Positions 2,514 through 64,000 of a DNA stretch of 64,000 nucleotides are shown here, in pieces; within the stretch, counting starts at the first letter, position 1, and each line of letters begins with the position of its first letter. The DNA is taken from positions 4,498,887-4,562,886 of the forward strand of contig KV748178.1 of NCBI GenBank assembly GCA_001692895.1, in the 5' to 3' direction. The position numbers and the translations under genes are program-made. The stretch is from Cenococcum geophilum 1.58. Taxonomy: Eukaryota; Ascomycota; Dothideomycetes; Gloniales; Gloniaceae. The notes under the pieces were generated by a model. It did no database searches, was not told the origin of the DNA, and saw nothing but the letters and a program-made list of their open reading frames with translations.

Positions 2514-4494
2514 ATGTTTACTAAGGTAAGTCACCATAGCAGCAATTATTTATTAGTGCGCTGTTTTAATAAAATTTACAGATTAGATATTTACCTTAAA
2601 TTAACCTCTGTATGTCTTCTTTCTCTACTAACCTTTTACCTTACAGCACCGCACCACAAACTTTATTATTATTGTTTTATCTACTATCCCTTAGCATTCT
2701 ACTATCTATAATGCCTTTATTTACACCCGTAAACAATATTAATACAAATAATAGCAGCCAGGCAGTTGAGGAACTTAATATACGCGAAATAAATAAGGAT
2801 GCTGTTAAGTATATAATGGCTACTCTTACTAAGCCTTTGGACTCTGTTTCTAAAGAGTAAGCTTTCTAATACTAAATTATGCCTATAGCTAATATAATTT
2901 TAGAAAATATATACTAAAGCGCTCTTTATAGGATTTAGTAGACAATAAAAATATAGATAGAGCCGAATCCGCTAAAAATCCGCGTACCTTTTTGCTGCCT
3001 GCCTTTCCGTTGCCTATATCTTTGCTATAGACCACTTTGCCATTAGTTTCTTCGCCGTCCGCTTCTTTGCCGTCCGCCTCTCTGCTGCCGCTACCTAATG
3101 CTTCTAAAAGGAGGCTTAATAAGGCTTATTTATCTTCTTTTCTTAGAAAGCAGGCTAAAAAGGCTGCTAATACGAATCTAAAGGCCAAGATAGCCATTAA
3201 ATTGTATATGTTAGTTATACTGTTTTAATGTCTTATTTACTAACTTACCTCTTATAGTAACCTAATAGAGATATTAGAGATTTTAGATAATAATAAGAGC
3301 AATCTTAATAACGCTAACTCTCCTAAAAGCCCTCCTCTATCCTCTTATAATCTCTATAGCCCTTATAATCTCTGCAGCCTTTATAATCTTTATAGTACTA
3401 TAAATATAAATAAACGCCTTCCTATCTAAGTGCCGTTAGCGAATAAATAGTACACTCTAAAAGCTAGTGTTTAGGAGAATATAAAGGAAAGTTGCTAGCG
3501 AATATTAATACATGTCCAGAATATTAAGGGTAGCTTTAGTAAGCTACGTAATCCGCTATATACTCTATATAAGAAGTATAGCTATAAATATTGCGTTTAC
3601 AAGAAGGACTCTAGGCCTTATTTTAGGGGTGCGTGCTTAAGATATTATAGAGGTAGTAGGTCGTGCGGAAAGGTATATACTAATAGTATACTATTATTCT
3701 GTTAGCTAATATGTGTATAGGAAAGTTTACTAAATCTAGAGCCGGTTATACCTTAGGGTAGAAAACATGTAAAATTAACTTCTGCTAATAATCTAGCTAA
3801 AATGCCTACTAAGAAGGTATAGTATCCACGTGTTAATAATACGGATATTGCTAATATCCGTATAGCTTCGTTCTTATACTATCCCCGCCCATGCTACTAC
3901 GCCTCCCCCCCCATTAAGACTCCCACTTATAGTAGTATACACAGCTATAGAGGCACCCGCTCTGCCGCTGCTCCTTTAACTCTTTTACTAATTACTAGCA
4001 CGTCAGGTGCTACTATTACTGCTGCTACTTCTACTAGTATAAAATCTGTTAGGATGTATTTAGTAATTGCTGTTTCTACGCGTATTAATATAGTTTATAA
4101 ACGGGTAACTAATATAGCAAAAGATGTTTAAGCTATGGACCGCCGGTTAAATAAGTTTGGAGATTCTCTAAGTAAGATAAAGGATAAGCTTGCATTCCTA
4201 AGGTGTAGTGTTACTACACTTATATACAACGCTAGGCTACCGGATATTAAATAAGTAGATATAAGTTAGCTATTGCTGCGGGTTGGCTATTATTATAGGT
4301 TTATAGTAATAAAATAGTAGCTTTTACCTTTTTGCTACTATATATGTAGGAATTAAGTCTCCGCCTTAAATTTAATAGATATACTTAATTAATATTATAA
4401 TATCCGTATAAGCTAAGGTAAAGATATCCATATAAGCTAAGATAAAGATATCTGTATAAGCTAAGATAAAGATATTTATATATCCGCACCATAA
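2514..4494 (+). pseudogene. Tandem unit B: second copy of the unidentified unit
   Basis: Second head-to-tail copy, sharing order and most of its sequence with unit A. A short open stretch begins at the ATG at 2711 (MPLFTPVNN...) and runs about 49 codons through ELNIRE and ending SVSKE. The Ser/Pro/Leu-rich stretch is near 3000-3100 and the NNANSPKSPPLSSYNL-like stretch near 3306-3350. Differences from unit A are mainly transitions plus small indels. A tandem duplication of this size is a strong RIP trigger, which fits the heavy C-to-T/G-to-A load in both copies. No domain recognised. The copy ends in the same minisatellite, with fewer repeats. Confidence 0.5.
4410..4481. repeat. 24-bp minisatellite, about 3 copies
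   Basis: AAGCTAAGATAAAGATATC-type units start at 4410, 4434 and 4458 and are followed by the same ATATCCGCACC end as unit A. Copy number differs from the ~6 copies in unit A, so the arrays changed length after the duplication. Confidence 0.85.
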
Positions 4495-7540: not shown

Positions 7541-8028
7541 TACAGTTATTTAAAAAAGATCGGTAAAAATCGCCAAGCTATAGCAGCGCGTATTACCCCC
7601 CTATTAAAACAATACACCCCCTATAGCCCCACTAATATAGTTCTATATTTTATAAATAGAGGCTCATTTTGTAGCTCTACTCTAGGGCTATAAAATAAGT
7701 CCTTATTTATATAATTCAAGGTTATTTTGGCGGAGTTATGAGGGGTGCTTATTTCTAAGAATGGAGGGGTCGGATTAGTCAGCGCAGAGCCTTAATTTAA
7801 GTTTTGCAGCCTTTGTAAAGCACCCATATAATTCTACCAATATTGGTCCAATTTATATAAATAGAACCTCGTTTTATAGCCCTAGAATAGAGCTATAAAA
7901 TAAGCCTATATTTATAAAATATAGAGCTATATTGGTGGGGCTATAGGGGGGATATTGTTTTGATTTGGGGGGGTGATGCGCGCTGCTGCGGCTTGGCGAT
8001 TTTTACCGATCTTTTTGAAATGACTGTA
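7541..8028. mobile_element. Fold-back (MITE-like) element with long inverted arms
   Basis: Left arm 7541-7714 and right arm 7851-8028 are near-complementary over about 175 bp, separated by a 136-bp spacer. Outer ends read TACAGTTATTT on the left and AAATGACTGTA on the right. Internal landmarks on the left are AAGATCGGTAAAAATCGCC, CTATAGCCCCAC and CTAGGGCTATAAAA, each with its complement on the right. The left arm carries more C-to-T changes, so RIP is uneven. No coding capacity is credible; short open frames here are artefacts of the arms. No target duplication was identified. It is presumably mobilised in trans by an unknown transposase, or is a simple inverted duplication. Confidence 0.8.
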
Positions 8029-14727: not shown

Positions 14728-15438
14728 TGTCATGCGGAGCTTCGTGTAGAGCCTCCGTACGCAGAGCTTCGCGCAGAGCCTCGTGCAGAGCCTCGTGCAG
14801 AGCCTTTGTACGTAGAGCCTTCGTGTAGAGTTTCGTATAGAGCTTTGCGCAGAGCTTCGTGTGAGGCTTCGTATAGAGCTTTATGCAGAGCTCCGTGCAG
14901 AGCCTCTGTACGTAGAGCTTTGTGTAGAGCTTCGTGTAGAGCTTTGTGTAGAGCTTCGTGTAGAGCTTCGTGTAGAGCTTCGTGTAGAGCTTCGTGTAGA
15001 GCTTCGTGAGAGCTTCGTGTAGAGCTTCGTGCAGAAGCTCGTGCAGAGCCTCTGTACGCAGAGCTTCGTGTAGAGCCTCGTGTAGAGCCTCGTGCAAAGC
15101 TTCGTGCAAAGCTTCGTACAGAGCTTCGTGTAGAGCTTCGTGTAGAGCTTCGTGTAGAGCTTCGTGCAGAGCTTCCGGCAGAGCTTCGTGCAGAGCTTCG
15201 TGCAGAGCTTCGTGCAGAGCTTCGTGCAGAGCTTCGTGCAGAGCTTCGTGCAGAGCTTCGTGCAGAGCTTCGTGCAGAGCTTCGTGCAGAGCTTCGTGCA
15301 GAGCTTCGTGCAGAGCTTCGTGCAGAGCTTCGTGCCAGAGCTTCGTGCAGAGCTTCGTGCAGAGCTTCGTGCAGAGCTTCGTGCAGAGCTTCGTGCAGAG
15401 CTTCGTGCAGAGCTTCGTGCAGAGCCTCGTGCAGAGCC
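14728..15438. repeat. 12-bp AGCTTCGTGCAG array, about 58 copies
   Basis: Highly regular array. The left part (14728-15160) is heterogeneous with many GTGTAG units. The right part (15175-15420) is nearly homogeneous GTGCAG, with one unit carrying an extra C at ~15332. The unit has no stop in any of the six frames, so it produces long periodic open frames (RASC, SFVQ, LRAE; LHEA and TKLY in reverse) that are not evidence of genes. Confidence 0.95.
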
Positions 15439-29177: not shown

Positions 29178-29391
29178 TGTTTGTACTAACTTAATAGCAC
29201 GAGTGAGTTGTATCCACGGGCACGAAATACATGTAGTATCGTATGCTTGTTTGGATGGTGACTGTCGATTGTATAAAGCAGACTACGTGGTCTATATACT
29301 AATGCGCCTCCCCCCTAATTAGTTAGCACGTAGGTGGTTGGTGCACGAACGCGTATTTACGCGTTTATATACTAGGTGCTGTAATTATACA
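29178..29391 (-). repeat. Copia-C 3' LTR
   Basis: 214 bp, TGTTTGTACTAAC at one end and AATTATACA at the other. It contains CGCGTATTTACGCG, a short inverted repeat. Confidence 0.9.
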
Positions 29392-32300: not shown

Positions 32301-35238
32301 CTAACGGGCGGCTTAGTAGTGGGTTGCCTCGTTAATTATATATAATACTGGGCTGCCGTTAATATACATAATATCTACGTATACTAAGTGGTTAAAGTTA
32401 AGGTCCTTATGAAGGGTAAACTTAAATCGGCCTAGGGAACGTCCGTATTTCTGGCAAAAGGAGCAGTATTTAGTTAGGTAATTAACTGCCTTCCTGTTAA
32501 TATTGTCGTGTCCAGAGCGTTTAAGGACTCTATATAGCTTTTTAGCTAACAGGTAGCCGAAACGGCGGTGTAGACGGTAGATCTCTGTACTAATAAGGTA
32601 GCACGGGTTATAGTCAAAAAATTCCTAAATGTAGGTCCGTAAAGTCTCTCCCTATATAAGGAACGGGTGTCTAAATCGTTGTGTAATTAGTAGGGTAATA
32701 TACTTGCTTCTTAGGGCAGTTGCGGGGCCGATTAAGGTGTCCGTAATATTGTTATAGTAAACCTATAACCTATCTATATCCGTAAGGCAAAGTAAGAAAG
32801 GGGTGTCTACTTTTACTATGTGGAAGTTAACTAGGCCAATTAGGGTCTTAACTGCAACTGATCCAATTAATGCAGTTAAGCTAATGCCGAATTGGACGTT
32901 TACGGCCCCAGTTTGCGTAATATTAATGTCCGTATTATTATTTACGGTAGTCCTATATATAAGGTATTGTCCGTAGCCTGTAGTAGACTTCTTAAAGGCG
33001 CCTATATCAATTATAACACCGTAGAATTCCTTAGGGGTATAGCGTTCTATAGTAATATATGCAAATAGGTCCTGCTTATAATCTATAACGTTTATAACAG
33101 GGGTGCTTATAGAATAGTTTTTGGGCGTAACTAAGTATATAAAGGAACGGTCGGCTAATACGGTCGTAATATTAAAGGCTTGGCTGTCCGTAAAAGGTCC
33201 GAAAGTAGTTAGGAATATCTCTAAGGTCTCTTATTCCTAAGCATTTGAGTTAAAGTTAATTATAAGGGCTTCTATTAACTCATTAGGGGGCTCTTCTACT
33301 TCCTCTCTTTTGTATTCCAAAATAAACTAGTTAATATAGCTATTAAGTCTCTTCCTAGACTTATTACGTTCTTCCTAGGTATGCCTTATAGACCAATATT
33401 CTTCCTTACTATATACAAAGCACTTCTGGCTAGTTTGTCTGTGGGGGTATATTTTTATATAAGGGTTGCTGCGGGGGTTACAGGTAGGACTTGGTCGGTA
33501 TAGGTGCTACTAGCGGTAGCGGCGGTCCGTAAAGTAGACGTCTAAGTTTATTTGTGGATATTAAATATCCGTAATAAAGGCTTAAGTGCTACCTGGTAGG
33601 TTTAAGACTTTATACGTTATAATAGAGGAGCGTAGATCATTAATGAGGCCAGCTAAGGTATCTGTAGGCTTATAGTAGGCGTACTTGCAGGGCTCTACTT
33701 CCTGGCAGGCCGTAATAAGTTTATTATATAGGAAGTCGTCCGTTTGAAGCTTAATATTAAAACCGTGCTATAGGTGGCGGAGGTCTTTAATAAGGATTTG
33801 CAGGCACTCTATAGTCGATTTTTTAGTATTCTTGTCCATTACGGTCTGTAGCTTGGTCGCATTCCATTGGGTAAGGATATTACGCTTATATTCCGGTCCT
33901 TTAAAGTAGTTACGTATAGCTTTGTATAGCTTATTAAAAGGAACACCAAGGGGGTTGCTCTTAAGATTGGTGTAGTAGTGGTCGAGTGCTAGGCCGCGTA
34001 GTATGGTAGAGTAGGCTTGGCTAAACTCTTATTTAGGAATATTAGCCTTCTGGCAGAGGTCCGTAAAGATAGTTAGTTTAAAGTTAAAGTTATCGTTTTC
34101 GCCGCTGTACTTAGATTTATCGGTATAGAGCTTAGCTAGGTTAGCTAGCTCCTTACCGTAGGTCTTTAGTTAGGTAGGTTGCGGATCTATAACTTATGGA
34201 TTTGTGGTTTGCGGATATATAGCTTGCGGATCTGTGACTTAAATAATAGGGGTAATTTAGTCCGTATTTTGGTTTACGGGGGTATTACGGTCTGTAACTT
34301 GAGTACTAGGTATACTTTAGCCCGTAAGATTAATTCCAAAACTGCTTAGGTTTATAGGATAAATTTAGTTAAGTGGGTTAGGTATAAGGCTAGCGATTAT
34401 ATTAAGTTTGGAAGAAGTAAAGAGTTCCTTAGTTTCTTGGAACTGGTTTAGGATTTCCTCTTTGGTCTATTCCGTTTGGTCCTTTTTGTGTATTGTGTTG
34501 TATAAGGACTATACAATAGTAACTCGTTTATTCCTTTTAACCTATACACCTTAGTTATATAAGAGGGTCCGTAGGTTACGGATAGTAGTAGGGTTGTATG
34601 CTTTAAAGATAGCTTCCATAAAGTCCGCGAAGTCTTTCTGGTATTACTCCTATAGGTTAACGTTTATAAGCTTAAAATATTTATATTTAAGAACTTTAAA
34701 TTTAATGTAGTTATTAACGTTAGGTATAGACGTAAGGTCGGCTTTCTACCTCTACTTTTCCTAGCCTTTATTAACTTGCTTCCTTAGGTCTGCCATACTA
34801 TATAGTGTAGTGTAGTACGCAGTAGGTGGAAGAGGTCTTATAGTGGTCCGTAAAGGCGGTTAATATCCGTAGCGGTTTGTAGAAGGGTAAGGGTGTCCGT
34901 AAGGGGTCTTAATAGGTCCGTAGTAGTTCGTAGAGGGGTAGGGGGTCTCTGTAAGGGGTCTGAAAAGACGTTGGAGGTATTAAAAGAGGGTATAGTAGGA
35001 ATAGGGGTTTAAGGTTTAAGGGTAGGGGGTTCCGTACAGGTCTGTATTCGCGTTTATTATACTTCTGGTAAACCGTACTAAGACTTAAATAAGTATATAG
35101 AGTTGGAGATAAGTCCGTAATCCCCAACTTCTGACCTTCCAGTAGGTTATACTAGGAGTCTGAACGAGTGGTTACTGTTAAGTATCGCTTGGGGGGAGGT
35201 ATTAAGTGATTGCTGATCTGTGCGCGCTTACTGATTAG

Positions 35239-35452
35239 TGTTTGTACTAACTTAATAGCACGAGTAAGTTATATCCACGGGTACGAAATACATATAGTAT
35301 CGTATGCTTGTTTGGATGGTGACTGTCGATTATATAAAGTAGACTACATGGTCTATATACTAATACGCCTCCCCCCTAATTAGTTAGCACGTAGGTGGTT
35401 AGTACACAAACGCGTATTTACGCGTTCGTACACCAGGTGCTGTAATTATACA
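35239..35452 (-). repeat. Copia-C 5' LTR
   Basis: 214 bp and co-linear with 29178-29391, with transition differences only by eye. Confidence 0.9.
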
Positions 35453-38425
35453 GTCCCCCTTAGATGACTTATTCTTTAATAATCCTTCTTTATTAATACT
35501 ACCTAACCTAACCTCTTTTAATACTTCTGTACCTTTCCTATAGCATTCTCTAAATTATTTAGTGGCTCCTAGGTAGTCTTATTATAGCCTATCTACTTTA
35601 CTTTATATTATATTTTATTATCAATATCCTTATAACTAATAATTTTTAAAACTTACTATTTGTCCTCTTCTTACCCTTTATACGTGTCTGCTTTATAGAC
35701 CAGTGGCTTAATATTCCTATATGCTAGCTCTAGTATCGCGATATGCTATATAGGGTAGATCTTTATTTTAGCTAGTAGGTTTAACTTAAATGTGACTTAT
35801 AAAATCCTCTATATAATTTTAAAAGGTCTTAGTCTAACGTAGTCTAACTTCCTACTTAGTTATTAACTTTTAAAATTTTTATATAGTAGCTATACTTTAT
35901 CCCCCTTCTTAAGATCTGGTCCCTTAGATCTCTTAGCGTTATAGTATTTTTTTTATTCTTTATTATACTACCTTAGCTATATCTATAAGGTGTATATAAA
36001 GATTTATTAATATCTCTATTCTTTACTTAGCTATGCTACTTATCTTCTTTACTTAATATAACGATAACAATATTCTTAGCTCGTATCTATAATTCGCCTT
36101 AAAAGGTAATATACCTATCCCTTCTTATAGTGTTGCGTTGTATACGAACTATATAACTGGTAATAACAATACCTAATTATTCTATACATAATTAATATAA
36201 TGTCTTAGATACTATTCTAGTGTCTAGTTTAATCTTTCTATTTAACCATCTGTCTACGGGTAATATGCGGTAAAAGTTACTACTTAAACCCCTTATTCTG
36301 CTAAAAATATTTCCTAGAATATTATTATAAATCTTAAATCTCTATCTAATATAATCTTACTTAGTACTCCGTGTTTTGTAAATACTTCTTTAATATAGAT
36401 TCTAGCAATATCTTCCGCTAAGATTTCTTCCGTGCATACTATAAAGTAGCCCTATTTAGTTAACTTATCTACTATTACTAAGATTATATCGTAATCTTAT
36501 CCGGTAATAGGGTCTCTTAATTTTAGTAACTTTATAATAAAGTCCTATAATATAACCTCCCATGGTCTCTCTGGTATTTTAATAGGTTATAGCCCTCCGT
36601 ATAGCTTATACCTTGTTAGTTTATTTCTCTAGAAATCTAGATATTCTTTTATAACTTATTTTACTAGTCCCTAGATTCCTTAAATAATATATTCCTCCTA
36701 TAGTCTTAATACTAAGCTTATAGCCCCATTATGTCCCTATATTATTCCCTTATGGAATTCTCTAATAAATTCTTCTGTAATAGACCTTGGAATATACGTT
36801 ACTTTTCTATTTTTATACTGGTCTAAGTCTAAATCCTTATCTTATACTTCTTAGATCTTCTATATCTAATTACCCTCTAGTAAATTATGGATCTATACTT
36901 CTTAAATTACTACTATCTTTAAATAATTATATCTGATTAATCTATCTTTATCTTTTCGTAATATTGCTCCTGACGGCTTTTTGTTATTCTATAGTTTAGC
37001 TTTCCTGCTAAGAGCGTCCGCTTATGTATTCTCTGTACCCTTAGTATACTAAATTTTAAAATAGTATTCTATAAGCATTTCTGCCTATCTAACTTGTCTT
37101 TAGTTAAGTTCTTTTATTATTAGGAACCCTATTAGGTTCTTATAATCCGTCTTAACTATAAATGGTTTCTTTATCCCTTATAAGAATGCTCTCTATTCCT
37201 TAAGTGCTGTAACTATACCTAACAACTTCTTGTTATAGATATTATAGTTTAACTCTAGTAGTGTTATCTTCCGACTATAGTATGCCACTGGATGCTATGT
37301 ATCTTTATACTTCTATAGTAAGTATACTCCTAGTGTAAAGTCTAATATATTTGTTTCTATAATTGTTTCTAACCCTAATTAGTAGATTTTAAGGATTAGT
37401 TCCTAGGTAAATAACTCCTTAAGTTCTTAGAATAGTACTTATTACTCTTTTCCCTATACCTATAGTTCCTCTTTCTTTGTTAACTATGTAAACGGCTTAA
37501 TATTCTTTAACCATTATGCTATAAATCTCCTATAGTAATTGCAAAACCCTAGAAACGACCTTAACTATATAACGTTTTCTAGTTCTTACCAATTTACTAT
37601 AGCTTCTATTTTCTTTAGATCTATGCTAATACGTCCTAGTTTAATAATAAATCCGATAAAATTGGTCTTCCTAGTAAAAAACTTGTATTTCTTAATTGCT
37701 ACTAGCATTTATTTTTCTTATAGTCTCCTTAAAACCTATTTAACGTATTCTCTATATTCGTCTTCTGTTATTAAGTAGATGATAATATTGTTAAGGTATA
37801 CTATAATAAACTTATTAAGGTGTTCTTTTAACACACTATTAATTCGCTTCTAGAACTTTACTAGTGCGTTTATAAGCCTAAATTGTATAACTAATGGTTT
37901 ATATAGTCCTTCCTTTAACCTAAAGGCTACTTTTTATTTGTTGCCTTCCTTAATTCTAATTTAATGGTACGCCTATCTTAGATCTATCTTTATAAAGATT
38001 TACGCGTTACCTATCCTATCTTAGATTTCGCTAATTAAGGGTAAAGGATACCTATCCTTTCTAGTAATGTTATTTAACTGTCTATAGTTAATGCATAGTC
38101 TTAGTTTCCATTCTTCTTTAGTACGAATAGTACTGGATATCCCGCTAATAACTGTAATGGTCTAATATATCCCTTTTATAGGTTTTCCTAGATAAACTCT
38201 TTTAAAGCTCTTAACTCTTCTTTAGTTAGCTTATAGATTAGAAAGAACTTTAGACTTATTTCTAGTTTTAACTCTATCTTATAGTCCTATCCCTTAACCC
38301 GCCGGAATTCGTCCTACCGTTATCGATAAGAACTAGCCAATCAGATCAAGCAAATCGAATCGTCGTGATCAGGAATATGCAGCTGATAATATATAGTGAT
38401 TGCTATATAAAATTGATATAGAGGC

Positions 38426-40440
38426 TCAATTCTTAGAGTCAAGTCGCTCAATATGAGGTAGCCAACAGTCGTCGCTCCTGCAGAACGGTATTTGACATAC
38501 ACTGCAGCCATACAAAGTTCTTGGCGCCCTTTTTGGGCGCTGCCAGTCCTTACTATCGCGAGGCTTCCTAATAGTATTTGACGAGAGCTTTGATAGAGCC
38601 TTCCTACGCCCCTTGTGCTGCACTTGAGTCTTTGAGCCCGCCTCTATACATGCCGAGCAGTTCTTCTGTTTATTCCAAAGCTTTACCAACTTATGATCCT
38701 CCGTCGGATACCATACTATATCATCGGTAGAGTACCGCGTAGGAGGTTCTTGGGTATAGGCCTTTCGCTTTCGAATCGAGCGCTCAAATAAGGCGTCGCG
38801 GAGGTCCCTCCTAAACTTCTTATGGCCATCATTACGACCAGCTCGGCGATCGGTAGGACGGTAGGAGGATAGCAGGTAGGAGTTGCCAAGGACTGTATCT
38901 AGTAGGAAGTGAAAGAGAGGCTTCCACGTCTTTCGATGCGTCCTCTGAGTGTTAAAATAGGACCGTAGCTGATCCGCGATATCCACGCCACCCATATACA
39001 GATTATAGTAGAAAATAAAGGTAGGAATGCGGAGTGTCTTAACTACCTTATCGCCAAAGACTTTGCGAGTCATTCGGGCGCCAGTTTGGGTGATAGGAGG
39101 ACGTCTTCGGTTAGTTTTCTTTGTTNATTGACCTGTGATGTATGACGTAGTCAGTATATGAGGCTCGAATAAGCTTATTTTAAGCCTCATTTTGGAAAGC
39201 TTTTAGAGCATTACTTACCGTCGTCGACCGTACTCATAAAAAGCACTACATTGGCGTCCTTCCAGGCGAATTCCATAACCTGACCGTCTTTGGAAGTCGC
39301 TGCATATAGTGTGCCCCATTGTATTTGAGATGCGTGAGTCAATTTAATATCAGCGAGCCTCTGGTCGATTTGCTCTGCAGGAACTTTGACCTTCTTTCTA
39401 CCTGCCGATTTGTTCACTAAAATATCGCCCTCCTCTCCTCCCTTCTTCTCACGCTCCGTTCTAGTTGTACGAACGGTTCCTGCAGCTCCAATTCCAAGCT
39501 CTCGAAGTCGAGTAAGAAGCTTGACACTTGTAAATAGATTGTCGAGCCAAACGACGTGTTTTCCTGGAGGATAAAGAGGCTCATTTGACTCTGCATCGCG
39601 CTGAGTAAGCATATCAAGGACTACTGCCTGCGTCTTTGAAAAGCCTTCCTCCGTGAATGTCTCATCCAGATCAACTGGGCCCGCCTTATCACCTCTTGCG
39701 TGCCACAGCCAATCAAGTATATAGCCCTCGTTCGCTAGGACCCATATTTTGAAGCCTTCAGGTGTTGGTTTGGTAGGAATATTAACGATTTCGGGGGCAC
39801 GGCCCATAAAGCGTTCAATCGTTTCGTCGACCGCAAGGTGGGCGCCAGGCCTGTAGAGCTTCCTGCAAGTAAGCCGAATGTGTTCAGCAAGCTTATCAAC
39901 TCTATCGAATGTAGATTGTGGTGTAGGATCGTTATCTGGCCATGGTTCTGTGCACCGAAAGTAGCGATCAAGCTGCTCAAATCGAGTCCGACTGATGTAT
40001 TTCTTAACGATATGTTCCGAACCAGTAGTGTCTAAAGAACCCCAGTAATCCTCAATGGATGATTCGTGTGTAAGGCCCATATGAATAAGTACACCAAAAT
40101 ACGCCCAGAGTTCTTCTTTGCATGTTGGCTGCCATGGGCGGGCCCTTTCATCTGCATCATTTGACGGGTGCAGCTCTGCGTACTTATTCGTCCATTCTAC
40201 CAGCTTATCCATAATCTCACCAGTAAAGAATTGACTGAATATAGCAAACGGATCGTTTCGATCAAGCGTAGGAGGTAGATTTGGGGCGCCATGGTCGTCG
40301 AAATCGTCAATATGCAAAGGCTCGAAATCGGGCAGCTCCCATGGCTTGGGGGGTGGTTTTTTAGCAACCCGGTTTGGTGGAACTTTGTATTGAGTCGGTT
40401 GAACAAGATCTATATCATTAGAAGTACGATTGGAAGGCAT
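38426..40440 (-). CDS. piggyBac-type transposase (DDE_Tnp_1_7), two exons
   Basis: Exons 40440-39219 and 39132-38426 give 642 residues. The 86-bp intron has a GTAAGT donor, a TACTGAC branch point and a CACAG acceptor, phase 1. Domain positions: conserved N-terminal region with WEL.DF.P (about 34-41); DDE domain with first Asp in LAVDETIERFMGR (D205), second in VVWLDNLFTS (D300), WKDANVVLFMSTV (393-405), and third in YMGGVDIADQ (D458); a Cys/His-rich C-terminus (NCSACIEAG and CSVCQIPFCRSDDCW..H). All three catalytic aspartates known for the family are present. It is expected to act in the nucleus on its own inverted ends, inserting at TTAA. One ambiguous base (39126) makes codon 410 TNA, which could be Ser, Leu or a stop. 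Otherwise the frame is intact. Start at 40440 is the first ATG of the open frame. Confidence 0.92.
39133..39218 (-). other. Spliceosomal intron in the transposase gene
   Basis: 86 bp. Donor G|GTAAGT, branch TACTGAC about 20 bases before the CACAG acceptor. Splicing restores the frame: the unspliced frame stops three codons into the intron, and the two flanking frames join as ...STVDDG|Q. This is the point where piggyBac proteins continue without a break. Confidence 0.88.
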
Positions 40441-43400
40441 GGTTGATGGTAATTAGTTGATCAAATCTATGTAAACAATACGCGTAGTTTTGATTCTGGT
40501 GTTCCCGCACGGACCAACTTCCCGTAGGACGCCGGCGGGTTAAGGGATACTATATAATCTAATAGCTTCTTACTTTCTAGTAACTATAACTTTTTGCCAT
40601 ATTTATAGTATCTCTTTAGTATATAACTTAAGCCTCGCTTAGTCTCTTTATATATTGCTCTAACTTAGTACCATACTATCTTAATAGCTGTGCGCCTTTT
40701 ACGTTATTAAGTATCTCTAATATTGACTTAACCTATAATCCAATTAATCTTTGGATTATATTCCTATAACTAAGGTATACCTAATATTGCCTTCTCCTAT
40801 CCCAATAGTAGGATATTAAAAGACATCTTAATTCGTCTTTCTTTAATAGTTAGCTAAATAGGTCCTGTTTTAAGGTTAATAATGCCTCCTCTATAGGCTA
40901 TCGGATCTCCTAAAATTATAACTAATAGGTAAGAATACTCCCTTTGTCTATGCGGTAATTCCATCCTTTTTACTATTATTGGTGAGATGTAGTTCCTTAT
41001 TACTCTACTATCTATTAGTACTTTGAACTGTTAATCTTACTATTTAACTTATAAATTTAGGTGTTGTCCTTAAATTCCTTTAAGGGTTTAAGGCTCTACT
41101 ACTAGCTCCCTTTAGTCCCGTAGGCCTCTACTTTTCCTAACTATTAGCTGCTAGATCCTGTTTATACTTAGTTTAACTTTAGCTAATACTTAGTTCGTTT
41201 CTTTTCTTTAATATGCCATGGATATGTATTCTCTAGGCATTCCCACTACTGTCGTCTATCTAGGTATTCTTCTGTAAGGAATCTTTCTAGTTAAAGCGTT
41301 AAGTTGCCTTCTTCCTAGCCTTCTACTAGATGCTAGCTATATATATACTTAGTATTCCTAAACCTTTGTTTATCTGTTATCCAATATATTCTAATTAGGT
41401 ACTTTCAATTCTTTTTCTTTAGATTCTTGTGTATATCGTATATATCGTTTACGCATGCAATCTACGCTAATGTATAATGTGCTGGGTGTCTTAGGTTAAC
41501 TCTTGGTTTATCTTTACTCGTAAGTTTAAACCTCTATCTTATCGATCTAAATGTTGCCCTATCGTTGGCTAGTAATGTAATTTGTTTACTATATCTCTAG
41601 TCCTCTAATTGCTGTTCTAGATCTCTTGATGTTATAATTAATGCTCCTTTAATGTAACTTATTTCTTTCTCGGTAATGGCTCTATCTATAATGACTTTTT
41701 TTATCTAGCCATATGTAGAAATCTTCCTACTTATTGTTGTGTCGCTGCCTATACCACTTTTGGTACAGCTCTATAAGCGTATACAACCTATCTATAAAGA
41801 AGTATCTTTTTATTACTGCGTTGTTGCAACCCTTTATGTGTCGTTTTACAAACCTAGTTAGAATCCCTAGATCCTTTTCTTGCTCCAGTTTATTTAACTA
41901 CTTAGCTCTAGGTGTACCTGCCTTTAGCCTATTAGTAATTCTTTATATAGGTACTTAGTCCCTTATACGACCTACTATACTAGTTCTTATATCTAGCTTT
42001 TATTCTTACTATGCGATAATTCTTACCCTAAATTTATCTATGCTTTCTTAGCGTTTGTGTCTTATAGTTAAATCCTTAAAGTCTTTATACTTCTTAATTA
42101 TTGTATTAACTTCTTAATCTTTAGGCTGAACATTTTATTCCCCTAGAATATCTTCTAGGTCTATATATCGGTCTCCTAGCCTAGTTACTGTTTGTATTGC
42201 GGATTCTTGTGCCGCTAGGTAAACTCTTCGTTCTTTTAGAATTATTATAGTCCTTATTCGTTCTCTAAAATCTTGGTTTTAAGGACTACTTAGTCCTAAG
42301 CTTGCCTTTTTTTTTTTAAAAAAAACTTTATCTTAGTCTAATTAAGCTTTGCTAGTGTTTTTATCTCGTTTTAAGAGTTTTAAATCTTACTTATCTCGTC
42401 TTAAGAATCTTATGTCTTAGGGAATCTTTGTCCTGTACTTATTCGCTTATTCTTAAACTGAGCCGCTGCCCTTTCCCAACGGTTATCGTCTGTTGTGGGT
42501 CCTTAGGTGTGCCTTATCTCGTTTTAAAAATCTTAGTCGTCTCTTATCTTAAGAGTCTTAAGTCTATAGCCTTTTGCCTTTATTAAGTGGTAATATAGCA
42601 CTAGTAGTCGTCTGCTTGCTTAAACCTCTTTAGTCTTATATCCTGCCGTCTTATAAAGCGATAGATGCCATATCTAATAGTGTTATAACATCCGTTACTA
42701 ATCCCCGTTTTATAGTAGTCTTAGTCTCTACTTCTATTACGTTATTAAGGTTTGGGTACTCCTAGTTAGTCCCTTTTTCTTCCTTATTGCGGTTAATTAA
42801 TAAGTACTCTAACTTTATTGTTATAGTTGCTAATCTTTATCCGTATATTACTATAACATCCTAATCTAGCTTATAGAGTTGATCCTATTCTTTATCTAAC
42901 TCTTTAGTTCCTTTAAGTTCTCTTAACTCTAGCTCCTATAGCTAATAACTTGCGCCGTACTTAGCGTCCTTATAAATTGGGCATGCGTTATTATAGTAAA
43001 ATATAAAACTTCTAATTAAGCATTCCTGCATTCTGTGTAATATTTTTATTACTAGTCTAGGTTCTCCTTATTTAGTACCCCTTACTGTGTAATAGTAACT
43101 CTAACTACTTTTATAGTCTCTAGCGTAGTGACCTTGTTTCCTATAATTTATACAAGCTCCGTTTTTAAACTATTTATTTTACTATAAAGTTCGCCTAAAC
43201 ATCTTCTACTGCTAAGATCCCTAGTTTAGCCTATACTCTTTAGTCCTTTAATTACTTAATTCTTAACCTTTAGGTTTCTATAGGTTTCTATCCCTTTTAG
43301 ATTCTTTGGTACCGCTTAGGTCTATTAGCTCTAGTCCGCTATTTTATAGTTTTTAACTCTATGTCGGTCGTTGCGTACTCTGCGCCTTATATAACTATAG

Positions 43401-44194
43401 AACTCTATCCTAACCTTTTTTAGTCTGCTCCCTCTAATAGATTCTATTGTCGATCTTAATTGCTTAATCGATTAGTTTTCTTAGGGTTTCCGTATCTTCT
43501 ATTAAAATAATCGCGTCTTGGACTTTTACTTTAAATCCCTGCTTATACTGTGCTATAAGCACCTTATTATTCCATTTAACCTATATAGCTAGCGTCTAAA
43601 ACTATGTCGTATACTTAATTGCTGAAGTCCGTTATATTAGGTTTTATAACCTTTTTTCCGCTATAGTTATCGCCTCTGGGTCCCTAAATATCTATATTAG
43701 GCGTTCCGCGAATCCTCCCTAACTAGCGAATATAAATCGTACTTCTTAATTAGTAGTAGTTATACCATTAGTTTATATCTTAGTAAGGTAAGATTTAAAC
43801 TATTTAAGTGCTCTACCTGTTAAGAATAGTCCTGCGTAAGCTACTTAATCCATTAATATTAGTAACTTTGCCCCTTTCTACATAACCTTAAAGTGCATTT
43901 GTGTAAGGAATCCTTTTAGTTTTAACTTCTCTCCTAAGAATCTCTTAATTAATGGTAACTTAATCTTAGCTGCTCTAATTCTATTAAGTCTTTCTTTAAG
44001 TATCTTATTATTATTGTTTAACTAATTAACTATTGCTTATAACTATCCAACCGTAACTAGTTATAAGTTAGTGTCCTGTATACTAGTGTCTCTACTTATG
44101 CCTAAAGTGGTTGCTGCCGTCGATGGCGTTATAACTGCTGCTTTAGGTGGCATGTTATTTAACTTTTATTAATACTATAACTAAGTAGTAAATG

Positions 44195-44615
44195 TGTAAC
44201 GAAGCCTTATAGTAGAAACTACAGTGGACTTATTAATAGGCTAGGTATGTAGGTAAATAGAAAAGTTAATAACAATAATATAACTAGTGGAGTAGTTACC
44301 TAATAGATTAACTCCAATTATATTCTAAGATTTACTACGAGGAAGGGAACTATTTAGGTAGGGACTATAGTCCTTTAAATACACATCTATACTCCTAAGA
44401 AAGTCGTTGCTCTGTCTACTCTATCTACTCTATTTGCTCTATTATAGATTACCTAGATTATACAGATTATATAAATTATATTACGTAACTCTGCTTACTA
44501 TTCCTCGTTATATAGTTCTACAGGTTCCATCCTAGACCGTGCTCTTATTAACCAACTAGCTTCTTCCGACTCCTCTCTAAGTAGTCGTAATATTGTACTT
44601 AAAGCGTCTGTAATA
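44195..44615 (-). repeat. Gypsy-A 5' LTR
   Basis: 421 bp, starting TGTAACGAAGCC and ending GTCTGTAATA. It is the only uninterrupted LTR of this copy. AGCGC follows directly. Confidence 0.88.
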
Positions 44616-48650: not shown

Positions 48651-49074
48651 TATAACGGAACCTTGTAGCAAGAACTACGGTGGGCTCGTTATTGGGCTAG
48701 GTGTGTAGGAAATGCAAGTATAAAAGTCAACAACGTAATAACAACTGGTGGAGTGGTTGCCCAATAGATTAACTCTAATTATATTCTAAGAATTACTATA
48801 AGGAAGGAACTATCTAGGTAGGGACTAAGGGTCCTTAAATACACAACTGTACTCCTATGAAATCCTTCTTATACGTGATGTACGTCTTATATATAAGGTA
48901 CGTAAGTTTCTTTTATTCCTCTCGTTTAATATATAGCATATTATATAACCTTAGTTACTATTCCTTATATATAGTTTTATTAGCTCCATCCTAAACCGTG
49001 CCTAAATTAACTAACTAGCTTCTTCTATCTCTTCTCTAAGTAGTTATAACATTGTACTTAAAGCGTCCGTAATA
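48651..49074 (-). repeat. Gypsy-A2 3' LTR
   Basis: 424 bp, starting TATAACGGAACC and ending CGTCCGTAATA. Preceded by CCCCT. Confidence 0.9.
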
Positions 49075-52000
49075 CTATCTCCCTCCTCTTTATCTTTATC
49101 CTTAAAGATTTAAAATATCTCTAAGTCGTTCACTAGAGGTATAATATCCGTCTAATTAATTTGGTTAATATTATTGCTTATTATACCTAAAGCAATTTCT
49201 TCTTTATACGCCTAACGTCGTACTTATACTATTGCTGCAATATTATCTCTTAGTAAGATTATACTGTTTCTATATTCTTGTTATTTAAAAGAGGGATTAG
49301 TTTATATTATATTAGCGAACCTATCTTCGCAACAACCGTCTTTTTATTTAAAGTGTACTAAAGCGAATATTTATTTGTCCTATAACGTTTACTCTACTTT
49401 TAATACTAAATATACGTGACCTATTACTCTTAATAGTCATCTAGTTCCCTAATTAATTTATCTTAGGGTTTTATATTTAATCTACTACTGCGCGGCTAGA
49501 TAGTAAACTATTATAAGCCCTTACTAAGTTAGAACGTTCCTATAACGCGGAATAGAAGGCTTTAGATACTTAAATTACGGCGTCTACTTATCTACTTTGT
49601 CTTAAGAAGGTTTATAAGAAGGTTTATTCTAAGGAGTAGAAACTTATAAAATAAGGTTTATAGGAATTAGGCGATAAAAGAACGGACTCTTCTCTAATAG
49701 AGAAGGAAATAGATCTAAGTAGTTTGGCAACTACTCTTCTTAGGTCCCCCTTAGGTGACTTATTTTTTAGCAATCCTTCTTTATTAATGCTGCCTAACCT
49801 AATCTCTTCCGATACTCCTATGCCTTTTCTATAGCGTTCTTTAAATTCTTTAGTGGCTCCTAGGTAGTTTTAGTGTAGCCTATCTACTTAACCTCGTACT
49901 ATATTTCGTCGTTAATGTTCTTATAATTAATAATCTTTAATACTTGCCATTTATCTTCTTTTTATCCTCTATATATATCTACTTTATAAACCGGTGGCTT
50001 AATATTCCTATATACTAGCTCTAGTATTGCGATATATTATATAGGGTAGATCTTTATTTTAGCTAGTAGGTTTAACTTAAACATAATTAGTGAAATCCTT
50101 TATATAATTTTAAAAGGTCCTAGTTTAATATAGTCTAACTTCTTACTTAGTCGTTAACTCTTAAAATTTTTGTATAGTAACTATACTTTATCTCCCTCCT
50201 TAAGATCTAGTCCCTTAGATCTCTTAGCATTATAGTACTTTTTTATTCTCTCTTATACTTTCTTTACTAATTCTATAAGGTTTATATAAAGATTTATTAA
50301 CGTTTTTATTCTTTCTTTAGCTATACTACTTGTTTTCTTTACTTGTTATAGTAACAATAATATTCTTAGCTTATATCCGTAATTTGCCTTAAATAGTAAT
50401 ATGCCTATTCCTTCTTAAGGTATTATATTATATGTAAACTATATAACTAGTAATAGTAATACCTAATTATTCTATATATAATTAATATAATGCCTTAAAT
50501 ACTGCTTTAGCGTCTAATTTAATCTTTCCGTTTAACCGTCTGTCTGCGGATAATATACGGTAAAAGTTGCTGCTTAAATTCCTTACTCCGCTAAGAACAC
50601 TTCCTAGAATACTACTATAAATCTTAAATCTCTATCCAATATAATCTTACTTAGTGCTCTATATTTTGCGAATACTTCTTTAATATAGATTTTAGCGACA
50701 TCTTTCGCTAAGATTTCTTCTATATACGCTATAAAGTATCCCTACTTTATAAGCTTATCTATTATTACTAAGATCGTGTTATAATCTTATCCAGTAATAG
50801 GATCTTTTAATTTTAGTAACTTAATAATAAAGTCCCATAATATAACCTCCTATAGTTTTTCTAGTATTTTAATAGGTTATAGCCCTCTATATAGCTTATA
50901 TCTTATTAGTTTATTTCTTTAGTAATTTAAATATTCCTTTATAACTTTTCTAGCTATTCTTTAGATTCTATTAATAATATACTCCTCCTAAAGTCTTAAT
51001 ACTAAGCCCGTAGCTCTATTGTGTCCTTAAGTTAGTTCCTTATAGAAGTCTTCTATAAACTGCTTTGCTATACTTTTTAGGATATACTTTACTTCTTAAC
51101 TTTTGTATATATCCGTCTGTAGATCCTTTAGCTATACTTCTAGAATTCTTTATACCTAAAAGCTTTCTAGTATCTTGTAGATTTTCTCTAGTTTATTATC
51201 TTCTTAAGTTGCTATAATTCTCGGATAATTATACCTAATTAATCTATTTATATCTTTTTGCAATAAAGCCCCTAATAGCTTCTCCTTATTTTATAGTTTA
51301 GCTTTATAGCTTAGAGTATCTGCCCTTATATTATCTGTACCTTTAGTATATTAAATCTTAAAATGGTATTCTGTAAGTATCTCTACCCATCTAACCTATC
51401 TCTGGTTGAGTTTCTTTATTATTAGGAATCCTATTAGGTTTTTATAATCCGTTTTAACTATAAATGGTTTCTCTATACCTTATAAAAATGCTCTCTATTC
51501 CTTTAATACTGTAACTATACCTAATAACTTCTTGTTATAGATGTTATAGTTTAACTCTAGTAGTATTATCTTTTAACTATAGTATGCTACTAGGTGCTAT
51601 CTATTTTAATACCTTTATATAAAGTATGCCCCTAGTATATAGTTTAATATATCTGTCTTTATAACCGTCTTTAGTTCTAGTTAATAGATCTTAAGAACTG
51701 GCTCCTAGGTAAATAACTCTTTAACTTTCTTAAAGAGTTCTCTTTGCTCCTCTCCCTATACCTATAGTTCTTCTTTCTTTGTTAACCTTATAAGTGGCTT
51801 AATGTCCTTTAACTACTGCGCTATAAACCTTCTATAGTAATTATAAAACCCTAGGAATAATCTTAACTATATAACGTTTTCTAGTTTCTGCTAATTTACT
51901 ATAGCTTTAATTTTTTTTAGATCTATATTAAGTTAGCCTAGTTTAATAATAAATTTAATAAAATTGGTCTTCCTAGTAAAGAACTTGTATTTCTTAATTG

Positions 52001-55000
52001 CTACTAGTATCTGTTCTTCTTATAGTCTCTTTAAAACCCATTTAACGTGTTCCCCATGTTCTTCCTTAGTTATTAAGTAGATAATAATATTGTTAAGATA
52101 TACCATAACAAATTTATCTAAGTATTCTCCTAATATATTATTAATACGCTTTTGGAACGTTGCTGGTATATTTATAAGCCTAAATTGCATAACTAATGGT
52201 TTATATAGTCCTTCTTTTAACCTAAAGGCTGCCTTTTATTTATTACCTTCCTTAATCCTAATCTAATAATACGCCCATCTTAGATCTATCTTTGTGAAGA
52301 TTTGCGTATTACCTATTCTGTTTTAGATTTTGCTAATTAAGGGTAAAGGATATCTATCCTTCCTAGTAATGCTATTTAACTATCTATAGTTGATATATAG
52401 CCTTAGTTTACTATTTTTCTTTGGTATGAATAGTACTGGATAACCCGCTAATAACTATGATGGTCTAATATATCCCTTTTATAGATTTTCCTAGATAAAC
52501 TCTTTTAACGCTCTACCTTCTTCTTTGGTAAGTTTATAGATTAGAAAGAACTTTAGACTTGTTCCTGGTTTTAACTCTATCTTATAGTCCTATGTTATAT
52601 ATTTTAATAGCTTCTTATTTCCCGGTAATTATAGTTTCTTACTATACTTATGGTATCTCTTTAGTATATAACTTAGTCCTTTTTCTATTTCTTTATAGGT
52701 TGCTCCTACTTAGTACTATACTAACTTGGCTTATTATTATATCTTACAGCGTTAAGTATCTCTAATATTAACCTGACCTGTAATCTAATTAATCCTTAGA
52801 TTGTATTTCTGTAATTAAGGTATACCTAATACTGCCTTATCCCGTCCTAATGGTAGGATATTAAAAGATATCTCAATTTATCTCCCTTTAATAATTATCC
52901 AAATAGGTCCTGTTTTAAGATTAATAATCCCTCCTCTATAGGTTATTAGATCTCCTAAAATTATAACTAATAGGTAAGGTTTCTCCTTTTATCTATAAGG
53001 TAGTCCTATTCTCTTAACTACTACTAGTAAGATATGGTTTTGCGTTGCTCTACTATCTATTAGCGCTTTAAACTGCTAATCTTGCTAATTAACTTATAAA
53101 TTTAGGTGTTGTTTTTAAATTCCTTTAAGGGTTTAAGGCTCTATCACTGGCTCCTTTTAGTCCTGTGGGCCTCTACTTTTCCTAACTATTAGCTGCTTAA
53201 TTTTAGTGCACTTAGCTCGCTCTTTAGCTAATGCCTAGTTTGCTTTTTATCTTCTATATACTATAGACACGTATTTTCTAGGTATTTCTACTACTATTGT
53301 CTATCTAAGCATTCTTCCGTAAGGAATCTTCCTGGTTAAAGTACTAAACTTCCTTCCTTTTAGACCTCTACTGGATGCCATCTATATATATATTTGGTAT
53401 TTCTATACTATTACTTGTTTGTTATCTAGTATATCCTTATAGGGTATTTCTAATTCTTTTCCTTTGGATTCTTATATATTTTGCATATATTATCTATATA
53501 CGCAATCTATAATAACGTGTAGTGTACTAGGTGCTTTGGGTTAACTCTTAGCTTATTTTTATTCTTAAGTTTAAACCTTTATTATGCTGATCTAAACGTT
53601 ATAACTTTATTTATAGGTATTAAGATACGTCTCTTATTTTTCTAATCCTCTAAACATTTCTTTAGATCCTTTAACGTTATAATTAAGGCTCCTTTAATAT
53701 GCGTTATGGCCTTTTCTATAATTAGGTAGTTTTAGATAACTTTTTTATCTAACTATATATAGAAATCTTCCTATTTATTATTATGCCTTTGCCTATACTA
53801 CTTTTAATATAGCTACTAGAGTATATACGGTCTATCTATAAGGAAGTATCTTCTTATTGCTGCGTTGTGATAGCCTTTTATGTGTTGTTCCTTAAACCTA
53901 GTTAGAATCCCTAGATCCTCTTTATCTTCTAGTTTAGTAAGCTACTTAGCTCTTAGTATACCTGCTCTTAGCCTATTAGTAATTCTTTATACTAGTGCTT
54001 TGTCCTTTATACGTCCTAATATACTAGATCTTTTATCTAGTTTCTGTTCTTGCTATATAATAATTCTTTACCTAAACTCTTCTATGGTTTTTTTTAGTTT
54101 ACGCCTTATGCTCTAATCCTTAAAGTTATCTTACTTCTTAATCCTAGTATTAACTTTTTAATCTTTAGTCCGAACACTTTATTTAACTAGTAAATTCTTT
54201 AGGTTTATATATTCGTCTCCTAATCTAATTACTATTTATACTGTAGATTCTCTAATCTATAAAGAAGCTCCTTGCCTCTTGTCTATAGGTGTCCTAATTT
54301 ATACCCTAAATTCTTAACCCCTTAGGTTTTTTAATCCCAAGCTCGCTTCTAACTTAAGCTTAGCTCTAGCCTTAGTCTAACTAGGCTTACTTAGTGTTCT
54401 TATTTTGTTTTAAAAGTCTTAAATCTTACTTATCTCGTCTTAAGAATCTTATACCTGTGGGAACTTCTATCCTAAGCTTATTTGTATATTCTTAAACTAA
54501 GCTGCTACTCTACTCTATCGGTTATTGTCCGTTATAGGTCCTTAAGCTTACCTTATCTTGTTTTAAGAATCTTAGTTATCTCTTATTTTGCTATAAAAAT
54601 CTTAAGCCTTTAGCCTTTTACCTTTATTAAGTGCTGAAGTAGTTCGCTATTCTACTTCTTTTATGTCTTGTAAAGCGATAGATATTGTGTCTAGTAGGGT
54701 TTTGATCCCTACTAATGTTCCCTATTTTGTAGTGGAATTATCCTCTACCTTTAGTATAATATTTCTAAGGTTTACTTACTCCTAGTAAGCGGCCCTTATT
54801 GCCTTATTGTTATAGAATGTTTCGCCTAGGTTGAATTTATTATCCTTAATATTTAATCTACGAACTAGTTCGTTAGTTCCTTTATATTTTATAGGTGCTA
54901 GCTCTTATAGCTAATAGCTTACGCTATACTTAGTATTCTTATAAATTTGGTATACGTTGTTATAATAAAATGCAAAACTTTTAATTAAATATTCTTTTGT

Positions 55001-56175
55001 TCCTTATAGTATATTATTATCCCTTTATATATGTATATCGTCTACTAGTCTTATACCCTTTACTATATAGTAACTCTACCTACTTTTATAGTCTCTAATA
55101 TAATAACCCTATTTTCCGTAATTTATATAAGCTCCTTCTTTAAACCATTTCTCTTGCTATAGAGTCCGCCTAAATGTCTTCTGCTAATGAGATCCCTAAT
55201 TCGGCCTCTGCTCCTTAGACCTTTAATTACCTAATTCTTATCCTTTGGGTTTCTATAGTTTGCTCCATCTCTTATAGGCTTCTTTAGTGCTACTTAGGTC
55301 TATTAGCTCTGCGCTATACCATAGTTTCTAACTTAGCTTTTGTTATTATGTACTCTGCGCCTTATATAACTATAGAACTCTGTCCTAGCTTCTCTTAGCC
55401 TATTCCCTTTAGTAGATCTAATTATTAATCTTAATCGCCTAATCTATTAGTTCCCTTAGGGTGTCCGCATCTTCTATTAGGATAATTATGTCCTAGACTT
55501 TAGCCTTAAGTCCTTATTTATACTATGCCTTAAGCGCCCTATTATTCCACTCTACTTATATTGCTAGTGTCTGGAACTATATTATATACTTAATTGCTAA
55601 AGTTTATTATATAAGGTTCTAGAGTTTTCTTTCCGCTATAGTTATTTCTTCTAGGTCTTTAAATATCTACGTAAGTCGTTCTATAAATCCTTCTTAACTT
55701 AAGAATATAAATCGCACGTCTTAGTTAGTGGTCGTTATTTTATTTGCCTATATCTCCGTAAAGTAAGGTTTAAATTACTTAAGTGCTTTTCCTAATAAGA
55801 ATAGTCCTACATAGGCTATCCGATCTATAGGTATAGGTAACTTTACTCCCTCTTATAAGACCTTAAAGTGTATCTATATAAGGAATCCTTTGAGCTTTAA
55901 CCTCTCTCTTATAAATCTCTTAATTAATAGTAGCTTAATCTTTACTGCTCCTATCCTATTAAGTCTTTCTTCTAATACTATATTATTAGCTGTTAGCTAG
56001 TTAACTATTTCTTATAGCTATTTAACCGTTACAGGTTGCTATAAGTCAGTATCTGCTATACTGGTATTACCTCCTATCCTTAAAGTAGTTACTGCCGTTA
56101 ATGGCGTCGTAGTAGCTGCTTTTAGTGGCATGTTATTTAACTTCTTATATTAATACTATAACTAAGTAGTAATTG

Positions 56176-56600
56176 TGTAACGGAACCTTATAGCAAGAAC
56201 TACGGTAGGCTCGTTATTAGGCTAGGTATATAGGAAATGTAAGTATAAAAGTTAACAACGTAATAATAACTAGTGGAGTGGTTGCCTAACAGATTAACTC
56301 TAATTATATTCTGAGAATTACTATAAGGAAGAAACTATCTAGGTAGGGACTAAGGGTCCTTAAATATACAACCGTACTCCTATAAAATCCTTCTTATACG
56401 TAATGTACGTCTTATATATAAGGTATATAAGTTCCTCTTATTCCTCTTGTTTAATATATAGCATATTATATAACCTTGGTTACCATTCCTCGTCACATAG
56501 TTCTATCGGCTCCATTCTAGACCGTGCCTAAATTAACTAACTAGCTTCTTCCGTCTCTTCTCCAAGTAGTTGTAATATCGTACTTAAAGCGTCCGTAACA
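56176..56600 (-). repeat. Gypsy-A2 5' LTR
   Basis: 425 bp, starting TGTAACGGAACC and ending CGTCCGTAACA. Followed by CCCCT. Confidence 0.92.
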
Positions 56601-56875
56601 CCCCTAGGGGAATAATCCCCTAGGGCTTCGTTCCCCTAGGGCTTCGTTCCCCTAGGGCTTTATTCCCCTAGGGCTTTATTCCCCTAGGGCTTTATTCCCC
56701 TAGGGCTTCGTTCCCCTAGGGCTTCGTTCCCCTAGGGCTTCGTTCCCCTAGGGCTTTATTCCCCCAGGGCTTTGTTCTCCTAAGGCTTTGTTCCCCTAGG
56801 GCTTTGTTCCCCTAGGGCTTCGTTCCCCTAGGGCTTTATTTCCCTAGGGCTTCGTTCCCCTAGGGCTTCTTTCCC
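56601..56875. repeat. 16-bp CCCCTAGGGCTTCGTT array, about 17 copies
   Basis: Units CCCCTAGGGCTTCGTT and CCCCTAGGGCTTTATT (the latter carries C-to-T and G-to-A changes) run from about 56615. CCCCTAGGGG is palindromic. Gypsy-A2 inserted at the first unit, so its CCCCT duplication is array sequence. Confidence 0.93.
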
Positions 56876-62995: not shown

Positions 62996-64000
62996 TAAGT
63001 AGACCTACAAATACCGAGATATATAGCTGCTGCTAATCTTATCCTACTTAGTGGTGTAGCTTATAAGTAGACCTATAAATACTAAGATATATAGCTGCTG
63101 TTAACCTTATCCTATTTATTAGTATAGCGTATAAGTAGACCTGTAAATACTAAAATGTATAGCTGCTACTAACCTTGTTTTGTTTATTAGTATAGGATAT
63201 AAGTAGACCTATAAATACTAAGATATACGGCTGCTGTTAACCTTATCCTATTTATTAATATAGGATATAAGTAGATCTGCAAATACTAAGATATATAGCT
63301 ACTACTAACCTTATCCTATTTGTTAGTGTAAAAAATAAGTAGACCTATAAATACTAAGATATATAGCTGCTGCTAACCTTGTCCTATTTATTGGTATAGT
63401 ATATAAGTAGACCTATAAATACTAAGATATACGGCTGCTGCTAACCTTATCCTATTTATTAGTATAGTTTATAAATAAACCTGCGAATACTAAGATATAT
63501 AGCTGCTGCTAACCTTATCCTATTTATTAGTATAGTATATAAGTAGACCTGCGAATATTAAGATATACGGCTACTGCTAACCTTGTCCTATTTATTAGTA
63601 TAGTTTATAAGTAGACCTACAAATACTAAAATGTACGGCTACTGCTAACCTTATCCTATTTATTAGTATAGAAAGTAAGTAGACCTGCGAATACTAAGAT
63701 ATATAGCTACTGCTAACCTTGTCCTGTTTGTTAATATAGTAGGTAAGTAAACCTATAAATACTAAGATATACAGCTGCTGCTAATCTTGTCCTATTTATT
63801 AGTATAGGATATAAGTAGACCTGCGAATACTAAGATGTATAGCTGTTACTAACCTTGTTCTGTTTATTAGTGTAGCTTATAAGTAGACCTGCGAATACTA
63901 AGATATATAGCTGCTGCTAACCTTGTCCTATTTATTAGTGTAGCTTATAAGTAGACCTATAAATACTAAAATATATAGCTGCTGCTAACCTTATCCTATT
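62996..64000. repeat. 68-bp minisatellite, about 15 copies, open at window end
   Basis: Units begin AAGTAGACCT at 62996(~), 63065, 63133, 63201, 63269 and onward every 68 bp, each containing ACTAAGATATATAGCTGCTG and AACCTTATCCTATTTATTAG. Variation is mainly C/T and G/A transitions. The array continues past the window. No coding function is inferred. Confidence 0.95.

Follow-up and report, generated by a model that had tools for sequence, protein, structure and literature searches.

This report concerns a 64,000-nucleotide stretch of contig KV748178.1 from the ascomycete Cenococcum geophilum 1.58 (positions 4,498,887 to 4,562,886), hereafter the window. At 38291-40546 it carries a cut-and-paste DNA transposon with what is, to judge from its sequence, a transposase of the piggyBac superfamily (Table 1). 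This superfamily is stated to be rare in fungi (PMC3864998). The transposon interrupts a Gypsy-like retroelement altered by repeat-induced point mutation (RIP), within which it forms an unRIPed island. A second copy of the retroelement, bounded by long terminal repeats (LTRs) of ~424 bp that are 90.6% alike, matches the two flanks with 82% and 74% identity and is without the transposon. Comparison with this empty site suggests that the element is probably a fungal piggyBac variant that inserted without duplicating TTAA, its ends being CCCTTAACCCGCCGG and its target duplication being a 2-bp AT within TATA.

Table 1. Positions of the transposon, its parts and the retroelement copies within the window
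Feature	Position	Strand	Basis
Transposon, 2256 bp	38291..40546	-	Against the empty retroelement copy, the insert spans 38291-40548 with one AT duplicate; best-supported ends
Terminal inverted repeat, 15 bp, CCCTTAACCCGCCGG	38291..38305		Perfect repeat; ends fixed by empty site
Terminal inverted repeat, other end	40532..40546		Perfect repeat; ends fixed by empty site
Proposed target duplication AT, left	38289..38290		Empty-site comparison; placement ambiguous by at most 2 bases, target TATA
Proposed target duplication AT, right	40547..40548		Empty-site comparison
TTAA inside terminal repeat (target duplication under rival reading)	38294..38297
TTAA inside terminal repeat, other end	40540..40543
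Transposase exon 1, 1222 nt	39219..40440	-	Open frames and PF13843
Predicted intron, 86 bp	39133..39218	-	GTAAGT donor, TACTGAC, CACAG acceptor; length not a multiple of 3; connects two frames
Transposase exon 2, including stop	38426..39132	-	Spliced-frame translation
Base N in codon 410	39126		Seventh base of exon 2; single N of region
Catalytic D205 (piggyBac D268)	39826..39828	-	PDB alignment
Putative catalytic D300, motif VVWLDN	39541..39543	-	Motif alone; outside PDB alignment
Catalytic D458 (piggyBac D447)	38981..38983	-	PDB alignment
Cysteine-rich domain, CxxC-CxxC-C-CxxxH	38453..38659	-	Cys positions; pattern set by eye against PMC8086355
Host retroelement, left flank, reverse transcriptase part, RIPed	35453..38290	-	RVT_1 E=1.4e-14 (piece with X at stops); aligns to 49744-52593
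Host retroelement, right flank, RIPed	40549..44615	-	40551-44613 aligns to 52596-56598
Second retroelement copy, empty site 52593/52594	48653..56601	-	LTRs 48653-49075 and 56178-56601

The transposase and its gene

Two open frames of the minus strand, 413 and 258 codons long between stops, give 642 codons once joined. Splicing of the predicted intron, suggested by its well-formed donor, acceptor and branch-like TACTGAC motif, would put the third catalytic aspartate in frame, in keeping with the clean 86-bp intron of the preliminary description. The whole PF13843 profile (DDE_Tnp_1_7; 1-349) aligned with residues 63-493 of the product (E=1e-53, 183 bits, with a cut-off of 22.4). Membership of Tc1/mariner was rejected, since PF13843 was the only Pfam family above its cut-off, with no Tc1/mariner-type DDE transposase among the matches at that level. 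In the PDB, matches with E up to 1 were confined to the transposase of Trichoplusia ni piggyBac (2.3e-26; PDB 6x67/6x68) and to that of piggyBat (2e-11; PDB 9c0f), which targets TTAA.

The catalytic aspartate motifs and the Cys/His-rich tail that had been read from the letters alone are both present. Not only D205 and D458 but also D461 (D450 of T. ni piggyBac) and Y450/N451 (Y439/N440) were matched by the alignment, and D300, assigned by motif only, completes the DDD set of the superfamily. The tail contains Cys 566, 569, 617, 620, 625 and 630 together with His 634, and a further His lies upstream. By eye, this pattern is like the cysteine-rich domain of piggyBat and PiggyMac-type proteins, whereas that of T. 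ni piggyBac is CxxC-CxxC-CxxH-CxxC (PMC8086355); T. ni piggyBac also differs in having a single open reading frame (PMC10512250). The computed isoelectric point of the tail is 9.9, and binding of DNA by it is therefore plausible. No credible relative of the tail alone was found in the PDB (best E 0.023), and a structure predicted for exon 1 alone (predicted local distance difference test score, pLDDT, 35.9) was discarded.

The frame may be broken at codon 410, where the N would complete a stop if it stood for either of two bases and a sense codon if it stood for the other two. Were that base really a stop the element would be dead, whichever reading of its ends is adopted. We regard this as rather unlikely, given that the long open frames on either side of the N match the family profile end to end, that the terminal repeats are perfect and that the element as a whole is without a RIP signal.

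Searches with the exon 1 and exon 2 proteins gave 2 and 6 pattern matches, respectively, among viral contigs and 7 and 17 among genome contigs, none of which was confirmed, and the end patterns had no match among the viral contigs. These null results are to be expected because the collections consist of viruses and prokaryotes. Rfam and tRNA scans likewise gave no matches.

An unRIPed element in a RIPed retroelement

The surroundings of the transposon had been described as a RIP-saturated retroelement, and the base composition of the flanks bears this out. The ratio (CA+TG)/(AC+GT) is 1.09 in the element and 0.40 and 0.53 in the flanks, and TA/AT is 0.92 in the element and 1.52 and 1.64 in the flanks. 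When the two retroelement copies were compared (counting both copies and both strands), C-to-T differences were found at 255 of 446 CpA, 111 of 624 CpC and 354 of 1733 CpT sites; CpG was also high (156 of 328).

We also scored a composite RIP index in 500-bp windows along the 64 kb, the DNA of which is strongly RIP-like and by that sign most likely of filamentous-fungal origin. The index fell below zero in 11 of the 18 windows wholly inside the element, in 3 of the 608 wholly outside it and in 1 of the 10 that straddle an end. The seven inside windows whose index was not below zero start at 38401-39001 and cover exon 2 and the intron. Thus, the label "RIP-free" in the preliminary description holds in the sense that the element is clearly unRIPed relative to its flanks, as both the ratios and the index attest, but not in the sense of perfection. 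Absence of RIP is compatible with a single copy or with late arrival, and no second copy of the element was found when the 64-kb window was searched for one. The three outside windows with a negative index are located at 13.9-15.7 kb, among short tandem arrays. Two of them begin inside a GC-rich 12-bp repeat (14733-15437, ~58 copies) in which several frames are open on both strands.

The ends of the element and the target duplication

The alignment of the two retroelement copies is ungapped as far as 38290/52593 and resumes at 40549/52594, leaving an insert of 2258 bp, that is, the 2256-bp element and a 2-bp AT. The ends so defined coincide with the coordinates first proposed, 38291-40546. The empty copy reads TATAGTCCTAT followed directly by GTTATATATTTTAATAG, and the occupied copy reads TATAGTCCTAT, the 2256 bp, AT and then ACTATATAATCTAATAG. 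No gap is required at the junction, and the two differences that come next are both transitions. The second copy is without TTAA at the empty site, so that no duplication of TTAA at insertion was found, a provisional result from a single site. Because TATA is palindromic, the duplication can be placed only to within two bases.

With the adjoining bases included, the ends form an inverted repeat of 18 bp (38288-38305/40532-40549) that is 100% complementary and that extends outward past TTAA to TATCCC/GGGATA. Within it, TTAA borders an inner 8-bp repeat, CCCGCCGG, at 38294 and 40540, which gives the superficial appearance of a classical piggyBac insertion. The 16-mer TCCCTTAACCCGCCGG, with up to three mismatches, occurs at the two ends of the element only (0.27 occurrences expected). 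A telomere-like origin of the CCCTTAA ends was rejected, for they are symmetrical on both sides and differ from the telomere repeat. Self-comparison in search of piggyBac-type sub-terminal repeats yielded short, weak matches only. The terminal repeats of piggyBac elements are stated to be 12-19 bp long and to begin CC[C/T]T (PMC2872659). The outer ends (15 bp, CCCT) conform to this rule and the inner, TTAA-defined ends (8 bp, CCCG) do not, but the rule is not absolute, as many bee elements begin CAC (PMC10140906).

When the occupied copy is collapsed onto one TTAA, the junction is left with an excess of exactly 12 bases, ATCCCTTAAGGG or its equivalent in a shifted register. The site lies within the retroelement polyprotein, before the reverse transcriptase, and the translations (with X at stops) are LLDYIV-SLKG-XDYKIEL for the occupied copy and LLKYIT-XDYKIEL for the empty one. 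A third Gypsy-like copy, near 26 kb, reads LLNPIL-VKYKIDI, a short form that matches the spacing of the empty site. Hence the 12 bp (4 codons) look, on this short match, like an addition derived in the occupied copy, and a 12-bp deletion in the second copy was rejected on the same ground. The junction is moreover the sole insertion of more than 1 bp in the occupied copy within the conserved stretch 36001-42230, the remaining indels there being two lacks, of 12 bp and 1 bp, and a 1-bp gain; 11 further indels of 2-47 bp occur from 42237 onward.

These 12 bp are what a canonical piggyBac insertion would have to account for. The element would then occupy 38298-40539 (2242 bp) and would have duplicated TTAA after landing in a pre-existing 12-bp palindromic insertion. 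TTAA does stand precisely at both sides, and TTAA-CCC, present at both ends, is the classical piggyBac junction. This form of the junctions also weighs against an AT duplication, as does the retention, in Y450 and N451, of the two piggyBac residues that contact the TTAA hairpin, Y439 and N440. Two coincidences would nevertheless be needed: the earlier 12-bp insertion would have been TTAA-centred, in a 16-bp palindrome, and its TTAA would have been chosen despite 75 others in the conserved stretch. Of the 1042 TTAA sites counted in the joined window, 2, the element site among them, have at least four palindromic flanking bases. The inner ends are, in addition, just 8 bp long and violate the CC[C/T]T rule. 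We therefore consider a canonical insertion unlikely; even if it proved correct, the locus would still be a clear case of a DNA transposon without RIP in surroundings that have undergone it. Less probable still is an aberrant integration by an otherwise TTAA-specific transposase, either through a 4-bp staggered insertion at TATA that cost one base per junction or through capture of an excised element by end joining. The left TAT and the right ATA each lack just one base of TATA, and excision of piggyBac is independent of TTAA flanks (PMC7351741), but two symmetrical one-base losses would be needed, and CCCTTAA ends would still be required.

The AT duplication, which we favor, is weakened by several further points. 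Its basis is a single insertion, compared with two other retroelement copies; all have suffered RIP damage, and one of the two, the third copy, is remote (59.6% identical as DNA), with a short match at the site. Three outcomes are not fully distinguishable: a duplication of AT, one of TA accompanied by a 2-bp indel, and one of TATA minus one base per side. In addition, the known geometry of the transpososome mandates a 4-bp offset (PMC7351741). As to the protein, retention of Y439/N440 argues for unchanged handling of TTAA, whereas replacement of the omega-loop residues R275, Y283 and K290, which touch the hairpin in piggyBac and align here with M212, N220 and P227, argues for a change. In either direction the evidence is weak, coming as it does from five residues of a single pairwise alignment. 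If AT was duplicated, an unoccupied allele of the same site is expected to read TCCTATACTATA, or a RIP variant of it, and to be without CCCTTAAGGG.

Relatives and a possible mechanism

The closest likeness by description is to Ti_tr1 of Tuber indicum, a 2351-bp insertion that contains a PF13843 transposase gene of three exons and whose class was left unclear (PMC3864998). Like the element described here, it is fungal, has a PF13843 transposase with introns, is of similar size and was reported with a 2-bp duplication, as is proposed here, TTAA not having been found. It differs in its 52-bp terminal repeats, its 566 residues and its duplication of TA (PMC3864998). A literature search gave, among the matches listed, no fungal piggyBac without TTAA besides Ti_tr1; the main survey of cut-and-paste elements in fungi was outside its coverage, and other cases are possible. 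On that basis the present element would be the second fungal case. Beyond fungi, non-TTAA duplications of piggyBac in seven bee species were explained as possible mutations (PMC10140906), and PiggyMac, a domesticated ciliate transposase that makes 4-bp staggered cuts centered on TA, indicates that the superfamily is able to cut where just the central TA is kept (PMC3408717). It is conceivable, though we would not put it at an even chance, that this element and perhaps Ti_tr1 represent a fungal piggyBac lineage in which TTAA lies inside the terminal repeat and the stagger is of 2 bp at AT/TA; TTAA specificity and the 4-bp geometry would therefore not be universal in the superfamily.

Targeting of TTAA, with an offset of 4 bp, is regarded as a hallmark of piggyBac. 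T. ni piggyBac duplicates TTAA, its cleavage leaves a 4-nucleotide TTAA hairpin that takes up on the enzyme a shape close to that of the TTAA target, and the offset is set by the dimer; structures of its transpososome explain both targeting and offset (PMC7351741). For the present element, if active, transposase made from spliced mRNA would, as in the family, bind the ends, perhaps through the C-terminal zinc domain, and the three aspartates would cut, the element then being pasted elsewhere. It probably arrived in the retroelement after the host had undergone RIP, or without sharing in it, and on insertion would have duplicated 2 bp, AT within TATA, rather than TTAA. With AT duplicated and TTAA inside the repeat, cuts or strand transfer would differ from the 4-bp TTAA geometry. 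A relative that kept the catalytic residues and yet made a 2-bp duplication would offer a natural means of testing what in the protein determines target and stagger. It would also caution that TTAA near the ends may belong to the element and mislead annotation.

Other repeats in the window

The same host retroelement is also interrupted by ~6.3 kb enclosed by 214-bp direct repeats (29178-29391 and 35239-35452) that are 93% alike. This segment is probably another LTR element, one that has undergone RIP, nested next to the transposon. Within the segment, which is otherwise RIP-like, 155 codons (32763-33230, minus strand) are free of stops. The second retroelement copy is followed, directly after its right LTR, by a 16-bp repeat (56616-56875, ~16 copies), and a 68-bp satellite of at least 14.8 copies (62996-64000) extends to the end of the window. 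Finally, we note an adjacent direct duplication of ~2 kb (589-2429 and 2514-4482, 73% alike) and a fold-back repeat at 7541-8028, which is 77% identical to its own reverse complement across an alignment of 496 positions.

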